Source: Flavobacteriaceae bacterium (GTDB taxonomy: Bacteria; Bacteroidota; Bacteroidia; Flavobacteriales; Flavobacteriaceae). Taken from it: a stretch of 64,000 nucleotides of DNA. The DNA lies in contig JAKMEK010000038.1 in assembly GCA_022425945.1 (NCBI GenBank), positions 1 through 64,000 of the forward strand, read 5' to 3'. Positions 54,753 to 62,435 of this stretch are shown in pieces. Made by a program: the position numbers and the translations under genes. The stretch's first letter is position 1; the number at the start of each line of letters is the position of its first letter. A model generated the notes under the pieces. The model was not told the origin of the DNA, searched no databases, and saw nothing but the letters and a program-made list of their open reading frames with translations.

Positions 54753-55610
54753 TTATTGTTTTTTTAAAAAAGCACCTATTGTTTCGGCCACAGCTTGGGG
54801 TTGTTCATCACAAATAAAATGACCTCCATCTAAATAAGTGATATTCACTGGATGTACAAAAGCGGTTTCTACCTCCTCCAAGAATTCAGGAATAACTACA
54901 CGGTCCAATTCCCCGTGAATAATGTGACTCGGAACTTCGATTTTTTTGTTACTGTAATTACTCCACCTTGCTCGGTCGATTGGCATACTGCGATAAAAAT
55001 TCGCTCCCGTTGTTATGGTTAAGGGTTTTTTATAGCAACGAATGTATTCCAGTAGTGCCTCTTCCGGAATGTCCTTTTTAATTCCTTTGCAAAAGAAACG
55101 TACCCATACTTCTTCTTTTCCTTCTAGCAATTCCTCTGGAAACTTGGGAATGTTCTGAAAAAATTGGTACCAAGAGGAGCGGAACATATTTTTGCCCAAT
55201 GTTTGGGCAGCTGTTTTCTTTCCAGAACCATGGTTGATGATCATCATATTGATTAAAATCAATTTGAGTATAGGTTTTGGTTGCATAAGTGCCATTTCTT
55301 GCACTACCGCTGACCCCCAATCATGTCCACCTAAATTAAATTCATCAATGTTGAGTGCTGCAGCAATGGCAAAAATGTCAAGCCCTAATTGATCTTTTGA
55401 ATAGGCATCGATAGCAAGCGTTCGCTCACTATCTCCCAAACCGCGTAGGTCAGGCGCAATAATGTGATAAGCGGGTAGATGTTGGGCGATTTCATTCCAG
55501 CAGTAACTGTTTTGCGGCCAGCCATGGACCAAAATTAATGTTGGATTCCCGACGGTACCATAGCTTCGGTAGACAAATGTTCCTCTAGGGGTGACGATTT
55601 CTTTCTTCAT
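54753..55610 (-). CDS. Alpha/beta hydrolase, epoxide hydrolase-like
   Basis: The 285-residue protein has the oxyanion motif HGWPQNSYCWNE and a nucleophile elbow GGHDWGS with aspartate. The acid is near HGELDRVV and the histidine is in DGGHFICDEQPQ. An aspartate nucleophile points to epoxide hydrolases, haloalkane dehalogenases or fluoroacetate dehalogenases rather than esterases. It overlaps the upstream DUF3291 gene by 4 bases. Confidence 0.85.
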   Translation of the reverse strand: MKKEIVTPRGTFVYRSYGTVGNPTLILVHGWPQNSYCWNEIAQHLPAYHIIAPDLRGLGDSERTLAIDAYSKDQLGLDIFAIAAALNIDEFNLGGHDWGSAVVQEMALMQPKPILKLILINMMIINHGSGKKTAAQTLGKNMFRSSWYQFFQNIPKFPEELLEGKEEVWVRFFCKGIKKDIPEEALLEYIRCYKKPLTITTGANFYRSMPIDRARWSNYSNKKIEVPSHIIHGELDRVVIPEFLEEVETAFVHPVNITYLDGGHFICDEQPQAVAETIGAFLKKQ

Positions 55611-56074
55611 CTAAGGCTTGTTTTAGGCATGGGAAAGGGTTCTTTAAAGGTAAAAACTTCTTTTGATGGACCGTTTTCTTGCAGCTGAATGATTTTTCTC
55701 TTGGCATCGGAGGGTGAAGGGTATTGACCCATTGGAATCCACCACAAGGCATAATGAAATCCTGCGATGTGCTTAAACCACTCTTTTCTGCGTTTCATGA
55801 TTTCAGCATGCATACTTTGGTATACGTATTTTTTTAATCCCTCCACAGATTTCCATACAGAAATGGTGACTAGCAGTGAATTGACATCCATAGAATGTTT
55901 TGGCAAGCTAAAATCTACATCTCCTTTAAGGCGCCAAATAAAGTTTTCATCCTTTTCGGCTAGTTCATTTAATCGATCAATATTTGCGACAAAATCAGCC
56001 ATAATAGGATCGTTGATGTCCTTGGCATTCATTCTAGCAATGTTGACCTGTGCAAGTTGATGTTTTTGTCTCAT
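55607..56074 (-). CDS. DUF3291 domain protein
   Basis: The 155-residue protein begins HQLAQVNIARMNAKDINDP and has VTISVWKSVEGLKKYVY, HAEIMKRRKEWF and HYALWWIPMGQYPSPSDA, a pattern I associate with DUF3291, a dimeric-barrel family near monooxygenases. The function is unknown. It overlaps both neighbours by 4 bases, so translation is coupled. Confidence 0.78.
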   Translation of the reverse strand: MRQKHQLAQVNIARMNAKDINDPIMADFVANIDRLNELAEKDENFIWRLKGDVDFSLPKHSMDVNSLLVTISVWKSVEGLKKYVYQSMHAEIMKRRKEWFKHIAGFHYALWWIPMGQYPSPSDAKRKIIQLQENGPSKEVFTFKEPFPMPKTSLR

Positions 56075-56439
56075 GCCTTTGCGTGGAGTCCAATTTTATT
56101 TCCTTCTGTATCCATAATATGTGCCATGAATCCGTTGGGTCCTAAAGCTGTTTTTGGGAGGACTACCGCACCGCCAATGCCTTCAATTTTATCCAAGCTT
56201 GTTTGTAGGTCTTCTCCAGTAGACAGATAAATGATCGTTCCCTCGGCTGAGGGTGTGTAGTGAGGTCCCTGCATCAGGCAAGCCCCACTTTGGTTTTCAG
56301 CGGTATGGGGGAAGAAGGCAGTTTTCATACCCATGGCTTCCATGACCTTCATTTCAATGGATAAAAGTTGGTTGTAAAAAACTACTGCTCGTTCAATGTT
56401 TTCGGTGGGAATTTCTACCCAGTGGATGGTGTTTTGCAT
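56071..56439 (-). CDS. VOC family (glyoxalase-like) protein
   Basis: The 122-residue protein has a single VOC module: HWVEIPTENIERAVVFYNQLL, YLSTGEDLQTSLDKIEGIGG and a C-terminal FMAHIMDTEGNKIGLHA with the metal-ligand position. Members include glyoxalases, dioxygenases and resistance proteins; this one is undetermined. It starts 11 bases downstream of the FAD-DUF2855 gene. Confidence 0.82.
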   Translation of the reverse strand: MQNTIHWVEIPTENIERAVVFYNQLLSIEMKVMEAMGMKTAFFPHTAENQSGACLMQGPHYTPSAEGTIIYLSTGEDLQTSLDKIEGIGGAVVLPKTALGPNGFMAHIMDTEGNKIGLHAKA

Positions 56440-56450
56440 AAGATTTGGAT

Positions 56451-58961
56451 TTATTCGCTCAAGTTAACAATTATTCCTTCTTTTGGCGAACGGCTCCCTT
56501 TACACACTTCTGGATGAATTTTTGCTAGGGCTTCAAGTCCCTGAATTTCATTAAAATCGATCCATTGTCTTGTCTTTGCTGCTGCCACTAGCATAAATGC
56601 ATTGACCTTTTGATCGAAGCTTACCGGTCCCCAATCTTTGAAACGCTTTTCAATGTGCGAAGGCGCGAAGAAAAATTTACTTCGCTCATTAATGATCCCA
56701 TCCTTTGGATTGGTCTTGGCCCAATGCGTTAGACCGACTTTAAGGGTGAATTGCATTTTATCTCCCAGAAGTTGATGCAATTCGGCTAGGAGTTCATTAT
56801 TCCCCGACATATCCACGATGACTGTTGGAATGTCGTGGTCAATCTGATTCAACTTTGTGTAGTTGAGTACATCATCCCATAAAGACAGTTTTTTAACCGT
56901 TTCTTCATTGCGTTGAGAGGTTAAACCAATCGACTTGGGTGCCTTAGGATCGGCTTCTAGCGCATACCCTAATCCAATGCTTGTTTTGCTTGAAGCACTC
57001 AATACAATGATTTGCTCTGCTCCATGCCAATTGTTTTCCTGTAAACTATCCCAAAGACAAAAGGATGTTAGGTAAAGAGGGAACAAGAGCGCACGCTCTT
57101 TGTCAAATGCTTTGTTGTAACCAGTTTCGTTGAGCACTCTACGGTAGAGGTTGTATCCCATGGGTAAAGTTGCCCGATGGGCAGAACCCTCAAAAAAGCG
57201 TTCATCCTGCACTTTAATGGGTTTCATTTTAAGGTGGGAAGCAGGAGGGAAGTAACCGTAAATGCGATCCCCAAGCGGGATTTCATCGGATTTGGTAGCG
57301 ACAACACTTGCAAATCCCCATACAGGGATCACCCCCATACCTTCGCATTTGTCTCCAACTGCAGGAAAGAATTCCCAATAGCGAATAATATCTCCAGTGG
57401 CAGCATAGGTGATGTTGTTTGCAGTATAAGCAAACTGCTCAATTTTCACTAAAACTTCACCTTCCTCCAAAACAAGATTTGCAGGGGGGATTTCTGCCAA
57501 TTGATGTTTGAAGAATAATTTTTTATCAACTTGAAATTGTGGGTGTTTCATAGGGGGATTTTCTTTTGTATCGAGTTCTTGAATGAGCTGTTGTAGTTTC
57601 ATCATGGCCGGAAGCGCATTGTTTTTTAGCCGAGAAAGAATCTCATTTTTTACGGCATCAGTACGGTCAGCTCCTCTAACCAATTGACTAAATCCATCCA
57701 AACGATTTTCTGTCATCCATTGCCGCAGGGGTTTGTCACTTGACCAATTTAATTGGTTCATCATTGTAGCAGCCAATCCGCGCAACCAATCGGTATCCCG
57801 ATCGGGGAGAGGCACAACACCACATAGCGCATTTTTCTCTTTATCTGTATTGTAATTCACTTCTACGTGGGCGATAAAAGCAGCACTAAAGGCAGGTTGA
57901 TATGAGCGTACAGTTTGGGGAATGATGACCTTTTCTTGAAAGATAGGGATGTTGTCAATTTCTTTTGAAATGGGGGTGGCAGAGCAATCGACAAAGTGGG
58001 TGTTTTGGGGTAATTCATGCTTGCCGTCATGGAGGCTAAGTGTTGTTTTACTGATGTGCTGAACTCTCCCTTTACGGATGATATTCTTGATTTTCCGCAA
58101 TTCTTTTAACTCTTCTAAACTTACGGTGGCCCCATGGAATTGACTAGGTTTTACGGCCTTGTCTAGGCGCATTAGCACTCCTTTTTCTTCTAGGCGATCG
58201 AAGAGATCTTCAAGGGAATTGGCTTTTGCCAAAGCTTCAAACTGATTGGCCTGATTCCCAATACTGGAGGAGAAGAAAGGCTCGGTATTTTGAGCGGTAG
58301 CCCTATCGATAACCCAACTATCTCGTGAAATAGCCCAGCTTATGTTATGCGCAGGAATATTGTTTTCTAGCAAGTATAGAATGGCATCCATCCCAGTTTT
58401 CCCTCCACCAATAACGCAGTAATGATCTGGTCCTTCCAAGAACTGTGGTAGTTCGTTGATGGGCTGAAAAGAAACATTTTCTTCTCGACTAAAGTTGGGG
58501 GTGTGGGTAGAAGGCACCTTAGTGGTTAGATGCGTTGCGTTGACTAATTTTTTTTGAACTGCTACCTGAAATTCTTCTCCTGTCGTTAGCGATCGAAAGC
58601 GATGGTCTCCTAAGTATTCACAATTAGGGAAATATTGAACTCGACCAGAGGCCAAGAATTGTTCATGCATTACTGCAGAATAGTAGTCCATTATCTCCGT
58701 CAAAGAAGATAGGTTACCGTACCCTTTGTTGAGTCCTTTATCGTCGATCTTACCATTACTCAATTCTTTTGAACTTACCCCATAAAAAGCCGCAGGTTGG
58801 TGCAGGCGAACAAAGGGGTATGCATGGTTCCAATGCCCCCCTGGCTTTGGGTATTTATCAATTATAATCAGGGTGGCATTGCTTTCTTCTACGAGGATGT
58901 CAGCAAAGGCCATTCCGATGGCTCCACTCCCGACAATCAGATAGTCTGTGGTTAGTTTCAT
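56451..58961 (-). CDS. Fusion of FAD-dependent monooxygenase-like protein and DUF2855 domain
   Basis: The 836-residue protein appears to contain two enzymes. Residues 1 to about 460 look like a flavin monooxygenase: dinucleotide site DYLIVGSGAIGMAFADIL, GGHWNHAYPFVRLH and a second site HYCVIGGGKTGMDAILYL. From about 475 (FQVDKKLFFKHQLAEIPP) to the end it resembles DUF2855, a distant medium-chain reductase-like family (EGMGVIPVWGFASVVAT, DRIYGYFPPASHLKM, IIVLSASSKTSIGLGYAL). It is flanked by an MFS transporter and small accessory enzymes. The substrate is unknown; a combined oxidation-reduction role is inference. Confidence 0.75.
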   Translation of the reverse strand: MKLTTDYLIVGSGAIGMAFADILVEESNATLIIIDKYPKPGGHWNHAYPFVRLHQPAAFYGVSSKELSNGKIDDKGLNKGYGNLSSLTEIMDYYSAVMHEQFLASGRVQYFPNCEYLGDHRFRSLTTGEEFQVAVQKKLVNATHLTTKVPSTHTPNFSREENVSFQPINELPQFLEGPDHYCVIGGGKTGMDAILYLLENNIPAHNISWAISRDSWVIDRATAQNTEPFFSSSIGNQANQFEALAKANSLEDLFDRLEEKGVLMRLDKAVKPSQFHGATVSLEELKELRKIKNIIRKGRVQHISKTTLSLHDGKHELPQNTHFVDCSATPISKEIDNIPIFQEKVIIPQTVRSYQPAFSAAFIAHVEVNYNTDKEKNALCGVVPLPDRDTDWLRGLAATMMNQLNWSSDKPLRQWMTENRLDGFSQLVRGADRTDAVKNEILSRLKNNALPAMMKLQQLIQELDTKENPPMKHPQFQVDKKLFFKHQLAEIPPANLVLEEGEVLVKIEQFAYTANNITYAATGDIIRYWEFFPAVGDKCEGMGVIPVWGFASVVATKSDEIPLGDRIYGYFPPASHLKMKPIKVQDERFFEGSAHRATLPMGYNLYRRVLNETGYNKAFDKERALLFPLYLTSFCLWDSLQENNWHGAEQIIVLSASSKTSIGLGYALEADPKAPKSIGLTSQRNEETVKKLSLWDDVLNYTKLNQIDHDIPTVIVDMSGNNELLAELHQLLGDKMQFTLKVGLTHWAKTNPKDGIINERSKFFFAPSHIEKRFKDWGPVSFDQKVNAFMLVAAAKTRQWIDFNEIQGLEALAKIHPEVCKGSRSPKEGIIVNLSE

Positions 58962-58993: not shown

Positions 58994-60175
58994 TTATCCC
59001 TTCACAGTGATTTTTTTGAACTGTACAGCAGCCAACAACCCAATGATTGAAAAGCCCCCCAATAGCATAAAGACATGTTGGTGTCCCTGGATCCCTGGAT
59101 TGGAATCAAGTAGGTAGCCCATGAGGGGTCCCATGAAAATATCTGGGGTGTATCCAATGAGTGAAATTACTCCCACCGCCGTTCCTGTAATCGCATAAGG
59201 AATATGTCCTTCTTGTATGGCAGCAAAATACAAAGAGCGCAAGCCGTAAGTTCCAATTCCTGTAATGATGACTGAAAAAATAAAAAATCCACTCAATGGG
59301 GCAGCGACCCATCCGGATGAAAACAAGAGGGTGCCCAAAAATAAAACAAAGAAACCTCGAATAAGCCATGTTGCACTATTGCTGCGATCGGCAAAGTAGC
59401 CAACACTTATGCAAACAATAGGGCGAATGTACATTTGATATGAACCTACTTTGGCGGCATCTACCTCATTAAATTCCATCACATCAACCGCATAGAGGGA
59501 TAGGATGTCGGTGACCTTGTAGCCTACATAAGCACAAAGTACCATCAGAATCAATAGTAAAACGGCTGGATACTGAACAACCGTTTTGATGTTTTGCCAT
59601 GCATTTGCTTGACTTCTGCGCTCTTCATTGGATGTATTATCATCCTCTTGAGTTAAACAAAAGAAAACGACAACACCCACGAATGCAACCAAGGCAGAAG
59701 TGACATAAATCACTGTCTGGAAAGCCATTTGGCGTTCTTCGAACGAGGCATCGCTTACTTCTTTGGGCAATAACAGAGCGAAGATGAATACCCCTGTAGC
59801 ACCTATTGAAGCGGCAACAATTCCTCTTCCTCCTTCTAAAAACCCGAAGGCTTTTCCTTGTTGTTTTTCACCACCCCAATTCCGGGTGGCTTTAATCATG
59901 GCTGCCCAAAATAGAAAAATCGTCGAAAATCCCCAATAACCAAAGAGAACTTGCAAAACAGTATAACTGGGAAAATTGGCCAATACCAAGCCACCGGCTG
60001 CCGTCAAAATAAGTGCTGATGCCATTAATTTCCGAGGTGAAAATTGATCAGCGAGCGCACCACCGTATAAATACGATAGGAAAGCAATGATTCCATAGGT
60101 GGTAAAAAGTGATCCCAACTGAAAATTGGTCAATTCAAAAACAGCCAAAAAGGTAGGCCGAAAAATACGCGCCAA
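58994..60175 (-). CDS. MFS transporter, start codon unclear
   Basis: The 393 residues from TTG 60175 show eleven or so membrane helices with the MFS loop YLYGGALADQFSPRKLM. The frame continues upstream without a stop to 60277 and encodes an obvious first helix (FRIILLIFAGESVFLLPFV), but has no ATG, GTG or TTG there. An in-frame ATG at 60292 is cut off by TAA after four codons. Either a rare start codon is used or the gene carries a nonsense mutation. It heads the operon with the FAD-DUF2855 gene. Confidence 0.75.
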   Translation of the reverse strand: MARIFRPTFLAVFELTNFQLGSLFTTYGIIAFLSYLYGGALADQFSPRKLMASALILTAAGGLVLANFPSYTVLQVLFGYWGFSTIFLFWAAMIKATRNWGGEKQQGKAFGFLEGGRGIVAASIGATGVFIFALLLPKEVSDASFEERQMAFQTVIYVTSALVAFVGVVVFFCLTQEDDNTSNEERRSQANAWQNIKTVVQYPAVLLLILMVLCAYVGYKVTDILSLYAVDVMEFNEVDAAKVGSYQMYIRPIVCISVGYFADRSNSATWLIRGFFVLFLGTLLFSSGWVAAPLSGFFIFSVIITGIGTYGLRSLYFAAIQEGHIPYAITGTAVGVISLIGYTPDIFMGPLMGYLLDSNPGIQGHQHVFMLLGGFSIIGLLAAVQFKKITVKG

Positions 60176-60330
60176 AACAAATGGAAGTAAAAAGACCGAT
60201 TCACCAGCGAAGATGAGGAGAATGATTCTGAAAATGGAGGCCCTTTTGTTGGATGAAGTTGAGATATTGATGCAGCTTTAAAGATGAAACATTGCAGTGA
60301 ATTTAAGGTAAATTATCTGAAAGGAAGAAG

Positions 60331-60813
60331 CTAGCTACCTTGGCAATTAGGATTGTCGATGCGCATTGCGATTAAATCGGAGCGAAAGCCTACTTTTTCG
60401 TAGGCTCTAATGGCACTTTTGTTTTCTGCAAAGACTTCAAGTTGCACCTCGGTTAAATTACGTTCAGCAGCCCATTGCATCAGTTGATTAATGATCAATT
60501 GATTGATTCCATTCCCGCGAAAAGCTGGAAGGGTATACATAAAGCCTAAGTAGGCAAAATGAGTTGTTTTTTTGTAGTGGGCGGATTGCTTTACAAGCGC
60601 ATAACCAGAGGCAATTATCGTATCATCTACGGTAGCAACCAAAACACAAATCTCAGGATCTTGAATGTATGCTTCAATATTGTAGTAGCTAATTTCTCCT
60701 TCTTTGATGGTTGGGGTTAAAGGGCGCTCATAGGCAATTAAGGCTTGTTCAAAGGCTAGCAAGGTAGGGAGGTCATCTATATGGGCTTCGCGTATGCGAG
60801 GATTCTTATTCAT
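60331..60813 (-). CDS. GNAT family N-acetyltransferase
   Basis: The 160-residue protein has [19 protein letters not shown], the acetyl-CoA segment [20 protein letters not shown] and [19 protein letters not shown]. The substrate is unknown. It overlaps the end of the GMC oxidoreductase gene by 4 bases. Confidence 0.87.
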
Positions 60814-62435
60814 CTATTGTTGTTTTTTAAGATCATTTCAGCGGCTTTTTCGGCGATCATGTATACAGGAGCATTGGTGTTTCCAGAAACAATTTTAGGC
60901 ATGATAGAAGCATCAACCACCCGAAGGTTTTCAACGCCATGCACCTTCAGTTGTGGATCCACCACTGCCGCATCGTCTATTCCCATTTTACAGCTACCCA
61001 CTGGGTGATAAACGGTCTCTAAGGTCTTTTTAATGTGTTCAATGAGTTCGTTGTCATCTGTTCTGTTGTGCGGTAATCCGTGTGCTTTGGTGTGCTTTTT
61101 AAGTCCTGCTTGCTCCATGATGTCAAAGACCAATTTGCCACCTTTGACCAATTGGTCTAAATCTTCTTGCTCTTCCAAGAAATTGGGCTGAATTACTGGG
61201 GCTTCCTTTGGATTTGCGGAGGCAATGCCTACCGTTCCTCTACTTTTGGGATGCAATAAGGTGGGGAGTATGGTAAATCCGTCTGTTCGGGGATATTTAT
61301 CTATATCATAGGCATCATAGCCGTATTGATTTCCTACCCACATAGGAGAGAAGTGGAGTTGGAAGTTGACTTTTCCCCCTTTTTGATCTAGGTCAAAAAA
61401 GGCCATTCCTTCCAGTGGGCCACTACAGAAAACTCCTTTTCGGTGGATAAAATAGTTCCAGGCAGCTTTGAGTTGTTGTAAAGGAGAAATATAGTGGTTA
61501 ATGCCTTCTTGTGTTTTGGCTTGCCCACATATGGGGTAAAACAAATGGTCTTGTAGGTTTTTCCCTACTCCTTTTAACTCATGTAAACATTCAATACCAT
61601 GTTTATTTAGTGCTGCAGCTTCTCCAATTCCCGATAACATTAGGAGTTGTGGAGAATGAAAAGCACCCGCAGAGAGAATTACTTCCTTGTGTGCGTAAAC
61701 GGTTAGGGTTTCATCGCCAAGCATGTAGTGAACCCCTACAGCCTTTTTGTTGTTTAAGATGATTTTTTCTACCTGAGCATGAGGAATCGCAGTCAGGTTG
61801 GAGCGATTTAAAACGGGCTTCAAGAAGGCCACAGCACCACTCGCTCGTTTCCCTTTTTTTATGGTGCTCTGAACAAGGCTCGCCCCTGTTTGTTTTGCTC
61901 CGTTATAATCGGTGTTTGTGGGTATACCAACTGCCGCACAGGCATTGAGGAATCCGTCTACGAATGGAGATTTGAATTGAGTGGGAAGTGTTACCCCAAG
62001 TTCACCCCTTGAACCGTGGTACCCCTCATCCATTTGCTCGATTTGTGCGTTGTTCTCAGCACGTATAAAGTAGGGGAGTATGTCTTTGTAGCCCCAACCA
62101 ATATTGCCCATTGCTTCCCAGCCGTCATAATCGGCAGCATTTCCGCGCACATAGGCCATGGCGTTTGTAGAACTGCTTCCGCCGAGGGTTTTTCCACGGG
62201 GGAGGTATATTTTTCTCCCTAAAACATGGGGTTGTTCTTCCGTCCAAAAGCCCCAGTCTTCTTTGCTCTTATGAACTTTTGTATAAGCGCCCGGGATGTG
62301 AATGTTCTTGTTTTTGTCTGGTCCACCAGCTTCTAGGACCAAGACTCTGTTTTTTGGATCTTTAGACAGTCGGTTGGCAAGTACACAACCCGCCGAACCA
62401 GCCCCAACAATGATGTAATCGTAAAATTGTCCCAT
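60810..62435 (-). CDS. GMC family FAD oxidoreductase, choline dehydrogenase-like
   Basis: The 541-residue flavoprotein has the FAD site [21 protein letters not shown] signature 1 ([19 protein letters not shown]), signature 2 ([15 protein letters not shown]) and catalytic histidine in [10 protein letters not shown], with asparagine in [16 protein letters not shown]. It oxidises an alcohol; choline or other alcohols are possible. No betaine aldehyde dehydrogenase is adjacent, so a choline role is not supported by context. Confidence 0.9.

Follow-up and report, generated by a model that had tools for sequence, protein, structure and literature searches.

Does a reading frame that joins two oxidoreductase folds encode a real protein, and if so, what could the two halves do together? 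The question is raised by a gene on the minus strand at 56451..58961 of the window, by which we mean the whole stretch of DNA that was analysed (64,000 nucleotides; Flavobacteriaceae bacterium, GCA_022425945.1, contig JAKMEK010000038.1, positions 1 to 64,000); all window features described below are on the same strand. The gene runs from an ATG at 58961 to a stop codon at 56451-56453 and encodes 836 aa, with an FAD/NAD(P) oxidoreductase-like half (the N half) followed by a DUF2855 domain. The frame is read through its whole length with no internal stop, and the AlphaFold2 model of the entire chain is confident (mean pLDDT, 92.4; pTM, 0.81). The fusion is found in 9 of the 19 genomes of the genus, in the ninth of which it is split over two contigs, and seven of these genomes carry intact orthologues with the same frame and the same length (66-82% identity).

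Because the seven intact orthologues keep both frame and length, we attribute the fusion neither to a missed stop between two genes nor to an assembly error. The same frame also occurs at eight loci of other genera. No evidence for artificially joined genes was found, although Met470, in the short linker defined by full-length alignment (residues 465-472; 57546..57569), looks like a relic start codon. This residue is shared with just the two closest relatives, and the more distant orthologues have Leu, Val, or another residue at the position. An internal start at Met470 was rejected, since the residue is not conserved, and the chance that the fusion is an artefact is vanishingly small. The initial annotation of two oxidoreductase folds in one 836-residue chain is thus borne out by the single frame, the Pfam match to DUF2855, the orthologues, and the whole-chain model.

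Searches of both halves for known domains gave very different results. The second half (residues 510-823; 56493..57434) matches PF11017 (DUF2855) with 304.8 bits against a cut-off of 30.9, over profile positions 1-333 of 335 (E, 1.5e-90), whereas the first half triggers only weak Rossmann models. No Pfam or NCBIfam model covers the N half beyond its Rossmann segments, and none spans the full length of the protein.

The DUF2855 half was modeled with a pLDDT of 91.7, and Foldseek matches it to the medium-chain-type (MDR) structures 1zsv, 1v3t, and 4b7x with E of about 1e-15. The 50 best listed fold matches all belong to the enone-reductase type of MDR, with a GroES-like and a Rossmann domain. 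The closest known systems are the LTB4 12-hydroxydehydrogenase/15-oxo-prostaglandin 13-reductase PTGR1 (LTB4DH) and plant double-bond reductases, which match over the whole domain with a TM score of 0.6-0.7. DUF2855 nevertheless differs from PTGR1/LTB4DH in having only 10-17% identity and no sequence-level match: a Pfam search at E 0.1 returned no ADH family, and a PDB sequence search with the DUF2855 profile returned no MDR chain, only chance-level matches. It also has the motif SASSKT (residues 655-660; 56982..56999), invariant in 33 aligned sequences, presumably where MDR enzymes carry their glycine-rich NAD(P) loop (AxxGxxG type), to which the fold match suggests it is equivalent. The altered loop, together with the absence of solved structures related in sequence, would suit DUF2855 as an accessory domain, supplying NADPH or electrons or acting as a scaffold, instead of a second catalyst. 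DUF2855 is, however, present in many genomes that lack the FAD half. This points to an independent activity and makes the accessory role very unlikely. We found no papers that name DUF2855, and PF11017 as a search word matches only malaria gene names.

The N half (residues 1-464; 57570..58961) is a two-Rossmann flavoprotein with a fold like that of the class B flavin monooxygenases. Its first dinucleotide motif, GSGAIG (residues 11-16; 58914..58931), is the predicted FAD site, with G11 and G13 invariant and G16 present in 61 of 64 aligned sequences. The second, GGGKTG (residues 185-190; 58392..58409), is the predicted NAD(P)H site; G185, G187, K188, T189, and D192 are invariant in the same 64 sequences. 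The best fold matches are class B monooxygenases, namely the Stenotrophomonas maltophilia enzyme SmFMO (4a9w and 4c5o), FMO, and CHMO. SmFMO and the class B FMO/BVMO enzymes share the two-Rossmann FAD/NAD(P)H fold with the N half, and sequence similarity extends over residues about 5-63, but identity is only ~13%.

The fingerprints of these enzymes are missing. None of 76 N halves contains the BVMO fingerprint FxGxxxHxxxW[P/D] (PMC4498894), and relaxing the pattern to FxGxxxHxxx[WFY] yields no match either. The FMO fingerprint FxGxxxHxxx(Y/F), which is located between the Rossmann domains (PMC10682829), is likewise found in none of the 76. Where BVMOs have their second fingerprint, [A/G]GxWxxxx[F/Y]P[G/M]xxxD (0 of 76), the N half instead has a signature of its own, GGHWNxAYPFVxLHQP (residues 41-56; 58794..58841), and the corresponding family pattern GxWxxxY[PS][FY]xxLHxP is present in 74 of the 76. 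The alignment identifies invariant residues peculiar to the family (H43, H54, Q55, H153, R213, and R220). The description "FAD monooxygenase-like" for the first half therefore holds for the fold only.

These same observations raise the possibility that the N half is an FAD-dependent dehydrogenase or reductase with a retained two-Rossmann fold and not an oxygenase, and that the pair carries out an isomerisation-like oxidation-reduction without O2. The absence of both FxGxxxHxxx[WFY] and the BVMO motif from all 76 N halves, the invariant residues peculiar to the family, and a fold that also matches dihydrolipoamide dehydrogenase are consistent with such an enzyme. The best fold matches are nevertheless class B monooxygenases, and early-diverging FMO-like sequences with altered fingerprints have been reported (PMC10682829). 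We consider the dehydrogenase a genuine contender, although at less than even odds. Both folds are established by prediction, and the activities that we infer for them are uncertain, given that the fingerprints are absent and SASSKT apparently takes the place of the MDR glycine loop.

Homologues of the N half in a haloarchaeal plasmid and in Actinomycetota (five loci) indicate that this flavoprotein family is broad and spans domains. A homologue on a Rhizobium laguerreae plasmid (locus L024, 6001-7378) is broken into two frames and is unannotated. A distant homologue was found on an IMG/VR contig that is a candidate virus (locus L112, 900-2279); this was the only N-half relative on viral contigs, and the fusion was not found there.

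How often are the two genes fused, and how often are they separate? Scanning named genomes with the N-half alignment yielded 80 loci, each of which was checked for DUF2855 with the profile. Eight of these are fused; they lie outside the window's genus, in Saprospiraceae MAGs, Robiginitalea aurantiaca, a Flavobacteriaceae MAG, a Bacteroidetes MAG, and a Rhodospirillaceae MAG. At 34 loci there are two separate genes that touch or overlap on the same strand, always with the N half first, which is the order in the fusion. Gaps range from -144 to +72 bp, as measured between stop-to-stop frames, so that the overlaps are upper limits. The remaining loci have no DUF2855 neighbor. The adjacent pairs include those of marine Proteobacteria (Psychrobacter, Arenicella, and Porticoccaceae), annotated as "NAD(P)-binding protein" and "DUF2855 family protein"; the families and their order are the same and the genes often overlap, but they are two genes instead of one, and many adjoin a divergent TetR regulator. 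An 817-aa frame in a gammaproteobacterium was considered as a second type of fusion and rejected: DUF2855 there begins at a start of its own, and the extra length comes from a high-GC run-on frame.

Where the N half has no neighboring DUF2855 gene, DUF2855 is encoded elsewhere in 34 of 37 such genomes; in two of the 37, the N half lies at the very end of its contig. The presence of DUF2855 in genomes with a lone N-half gene is far above background. DUF2855 was found in 22 of 220 sampled Alphaproteobacteria but in 6 of the 7 N-half genomes there, and in 8 of 274 sampled Gammaproteobacteria but in all 4 N-half genomes. With the centre genome removed, the comparison is 5 of 6 N-half genomes versus 16 of 213 others for Alphaproteobacteria (Fisher P, 3e-5) and 3 of 3 versus 4 of 270 for Gammaproteobacteria (Fisher P, 1e-5); these P values ignore the relatedness of the genomes. 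In a 396-genome sample of the phylum, the N half occurs only in the window's genome and DUF2855 in one other. The class samples show the wider DUF2855 family to be mostly without the FAD half. Because both enzymes occur next to each other or in the same genome in many bacteria, the fusion marks a genuine, uncharacterised two-protein working partnership.

The DUF2855 tree places the Bacteroidota fusions in one fully supported clade that is nested among the proteobacterial adjacent-gene pairs, and we propose that the genes fused once in the Bacteroidota lineage. Eight sister genomes of the genus, one of them a single-contig genome, encode DUF2855 as a separate protein and lack the N half. Three of these DUF2855 sequences were put in the tree and nest within the fused clade, where they are sister to the fusions of the genus. 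The simplest reading is that the eight genomes lost the FAD half and that the ancestor of their DUF2855 was probably fused. Most of the unlinked DUF2855 copies sit in a clade more divergent than the linked ones, and they may thus not be the same partner.

The fusion from the Rhodospirillaceae MAG groups with the proteobacterial pairs, and the linker of this fusion contains no start codon from which DUF2855 could begin. An AU test on the concatenated data rejects a shared origin for every fusion (P, 0.003), but the N and C halves taken singly do not reject it (P, 0.14 and 0.16). We therefore favor two fusion events, the second represented by one MAG contig.

The initial annotation had explained the fusion by channelling, with an unstable product of one half passing directly to the other. 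Two fusion events and tight gene overlaps do indicate selection for coproduction. However, most pairs are unfused and many are unlinked, and the eight sister genomes retain DUF2855 although they have probably lost the FAD half. Channelling is weakened by these cases and is unnecessary to explain the fusion; we think it quite unlikely.

In the window, the fusion lies in a tight operon that is mostly kept within the genus. Directly upstream, 32 bp away, is a gene for an MFS transporter (58994..60175; PF07690; E, 4.7e-24) that adjoins the fusion in six relatives (L002 to L007) and is likely part of the same operon. Downstream by 11 bp is a gene for a VOC/glyoxalase-fold protein (56071..56439; PF00903; E, 4.1e-05; also in L002, L003, L004, and L009), which overlaps by 4 bp with a DUF3291 gene (55607..56074; PF11695; E, 2.8e-44; also in L004 to L007). 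This in turn overlaps by 4 bp with a gene for an alpha/beta hydrolase of the epoxide hydrolase/dehalogenase type (54753..55610; motifs HGWPQ and GHDWG), the closest solved relative of which is the epoxide hydrolase 5ng7 (E, 4.5e-29). The VOC and DUF3291 genes are variable (window 54753-56439): L002 and L003 have VOC only, L005 to L007 have DUF3291 only, and L004 and the window have both.

The MFS frame (58994-60250) has no ATG, GTG, or TTG before the first transmembrane segment; since the relatives encode this segment, a rare start codon or an error in the start region is likely. Just upstream of the MFS gene, at 60331-62435, are GNAT and GMC (choline dehydrogenase-like) genes with a 4-bp overlap, and the GMC gene possibly supplies another oxidoreductase to this pathway.

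The genes of the window's operon are missing outside the genus, and conserved neighbors were therefore rejected there as a functional clue. Divergent TetR genes beside the N half account for 20 of the 103 neighbors scanned; besides TetR and the partner, no Pfam family is found in more than 4 of those scanned. The stand-alone DUF2855 of the genus has a context unlike that of the fusion, with genes that sequence inspection identifies as acyl-CoA dehydrogenase-like and PhzF-like (three loci). Acyl-CoA dehydrogenase and enoyl-CoA hydratase genes are found at unlinked DUF2855 loci elsewhere, in 3-4 cases.

Our main reading is that the N half and DUF2855 perform two successive redox steps on a single small substrate and have been fused for coproduction, to which we assign a probability of about 0.5. 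The N half would bind FAD and NAD(P)H in its class B monooxygenase-type fold and would oxidise the small substrate, and the DUF2855 half, as an NADPH-dependent enone-reductase-like MDR, would reduce a double bond or a carbonyl, either of this substrate or of its product; here we infer which cofactors are used, what the two reactions are, the order in which they run, and the nature of the substrate. Elsewhere the same two enzymes are separate proteins, often from overlapping genes beside a TetR regulator gene, which fits a small-molecule-induced catabolic or detoxification pair. Fusion would fix their stoichiometry and proximity and would not be mechanistically required. The transporter, VOC, DUF3291, and epoxide hydrolase-like neighbors suggest that the window's operon may serve to take up and break down, or to detoxify, a small molecule that is unsaturated or oxygenated.

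A more specific version of this two-step reading is a natural flavin-monooxygenase and enone-reductase unit that evolved into a single protein at least twice, with coupled chemistry like that of ERED-BVMO systems, in which the N half would represent a new fingerprint-less flavoprotein subfamily and DUF2855 a new MDR branch. We hold this version to be unlikely. An engineered precedent is the enoate reductase-BVMO fusion CHMO-XenB (reviewed in PMC7814890). It resembles the proposed reading in linking a flavin monooxygenase to an enone reductase for consecutive steps, but it is man-made, and the BVMO fingerprints are missing from the natural N half. In addition, XenB is an enoate reductase and does not have the MDR fold. 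We found no characterised natural protein with the N half-DUF2855 arrangement, in agreement with the initial annotation.

For the family, DUF2855 gains a predicted fold class and a partner. The function also becomes testable: the fused protein delivers the two enzymes at a set ratio, and the separate genes of the Psychrobacter or Alteromonas pair provide a genetic system. If oxygenation and enone reduction are indeed combined, the fusion would be nature's equivalent of an engineered biocatalyst. It is in any case more general than first thought, as a pointer to a real two-protein partnership.
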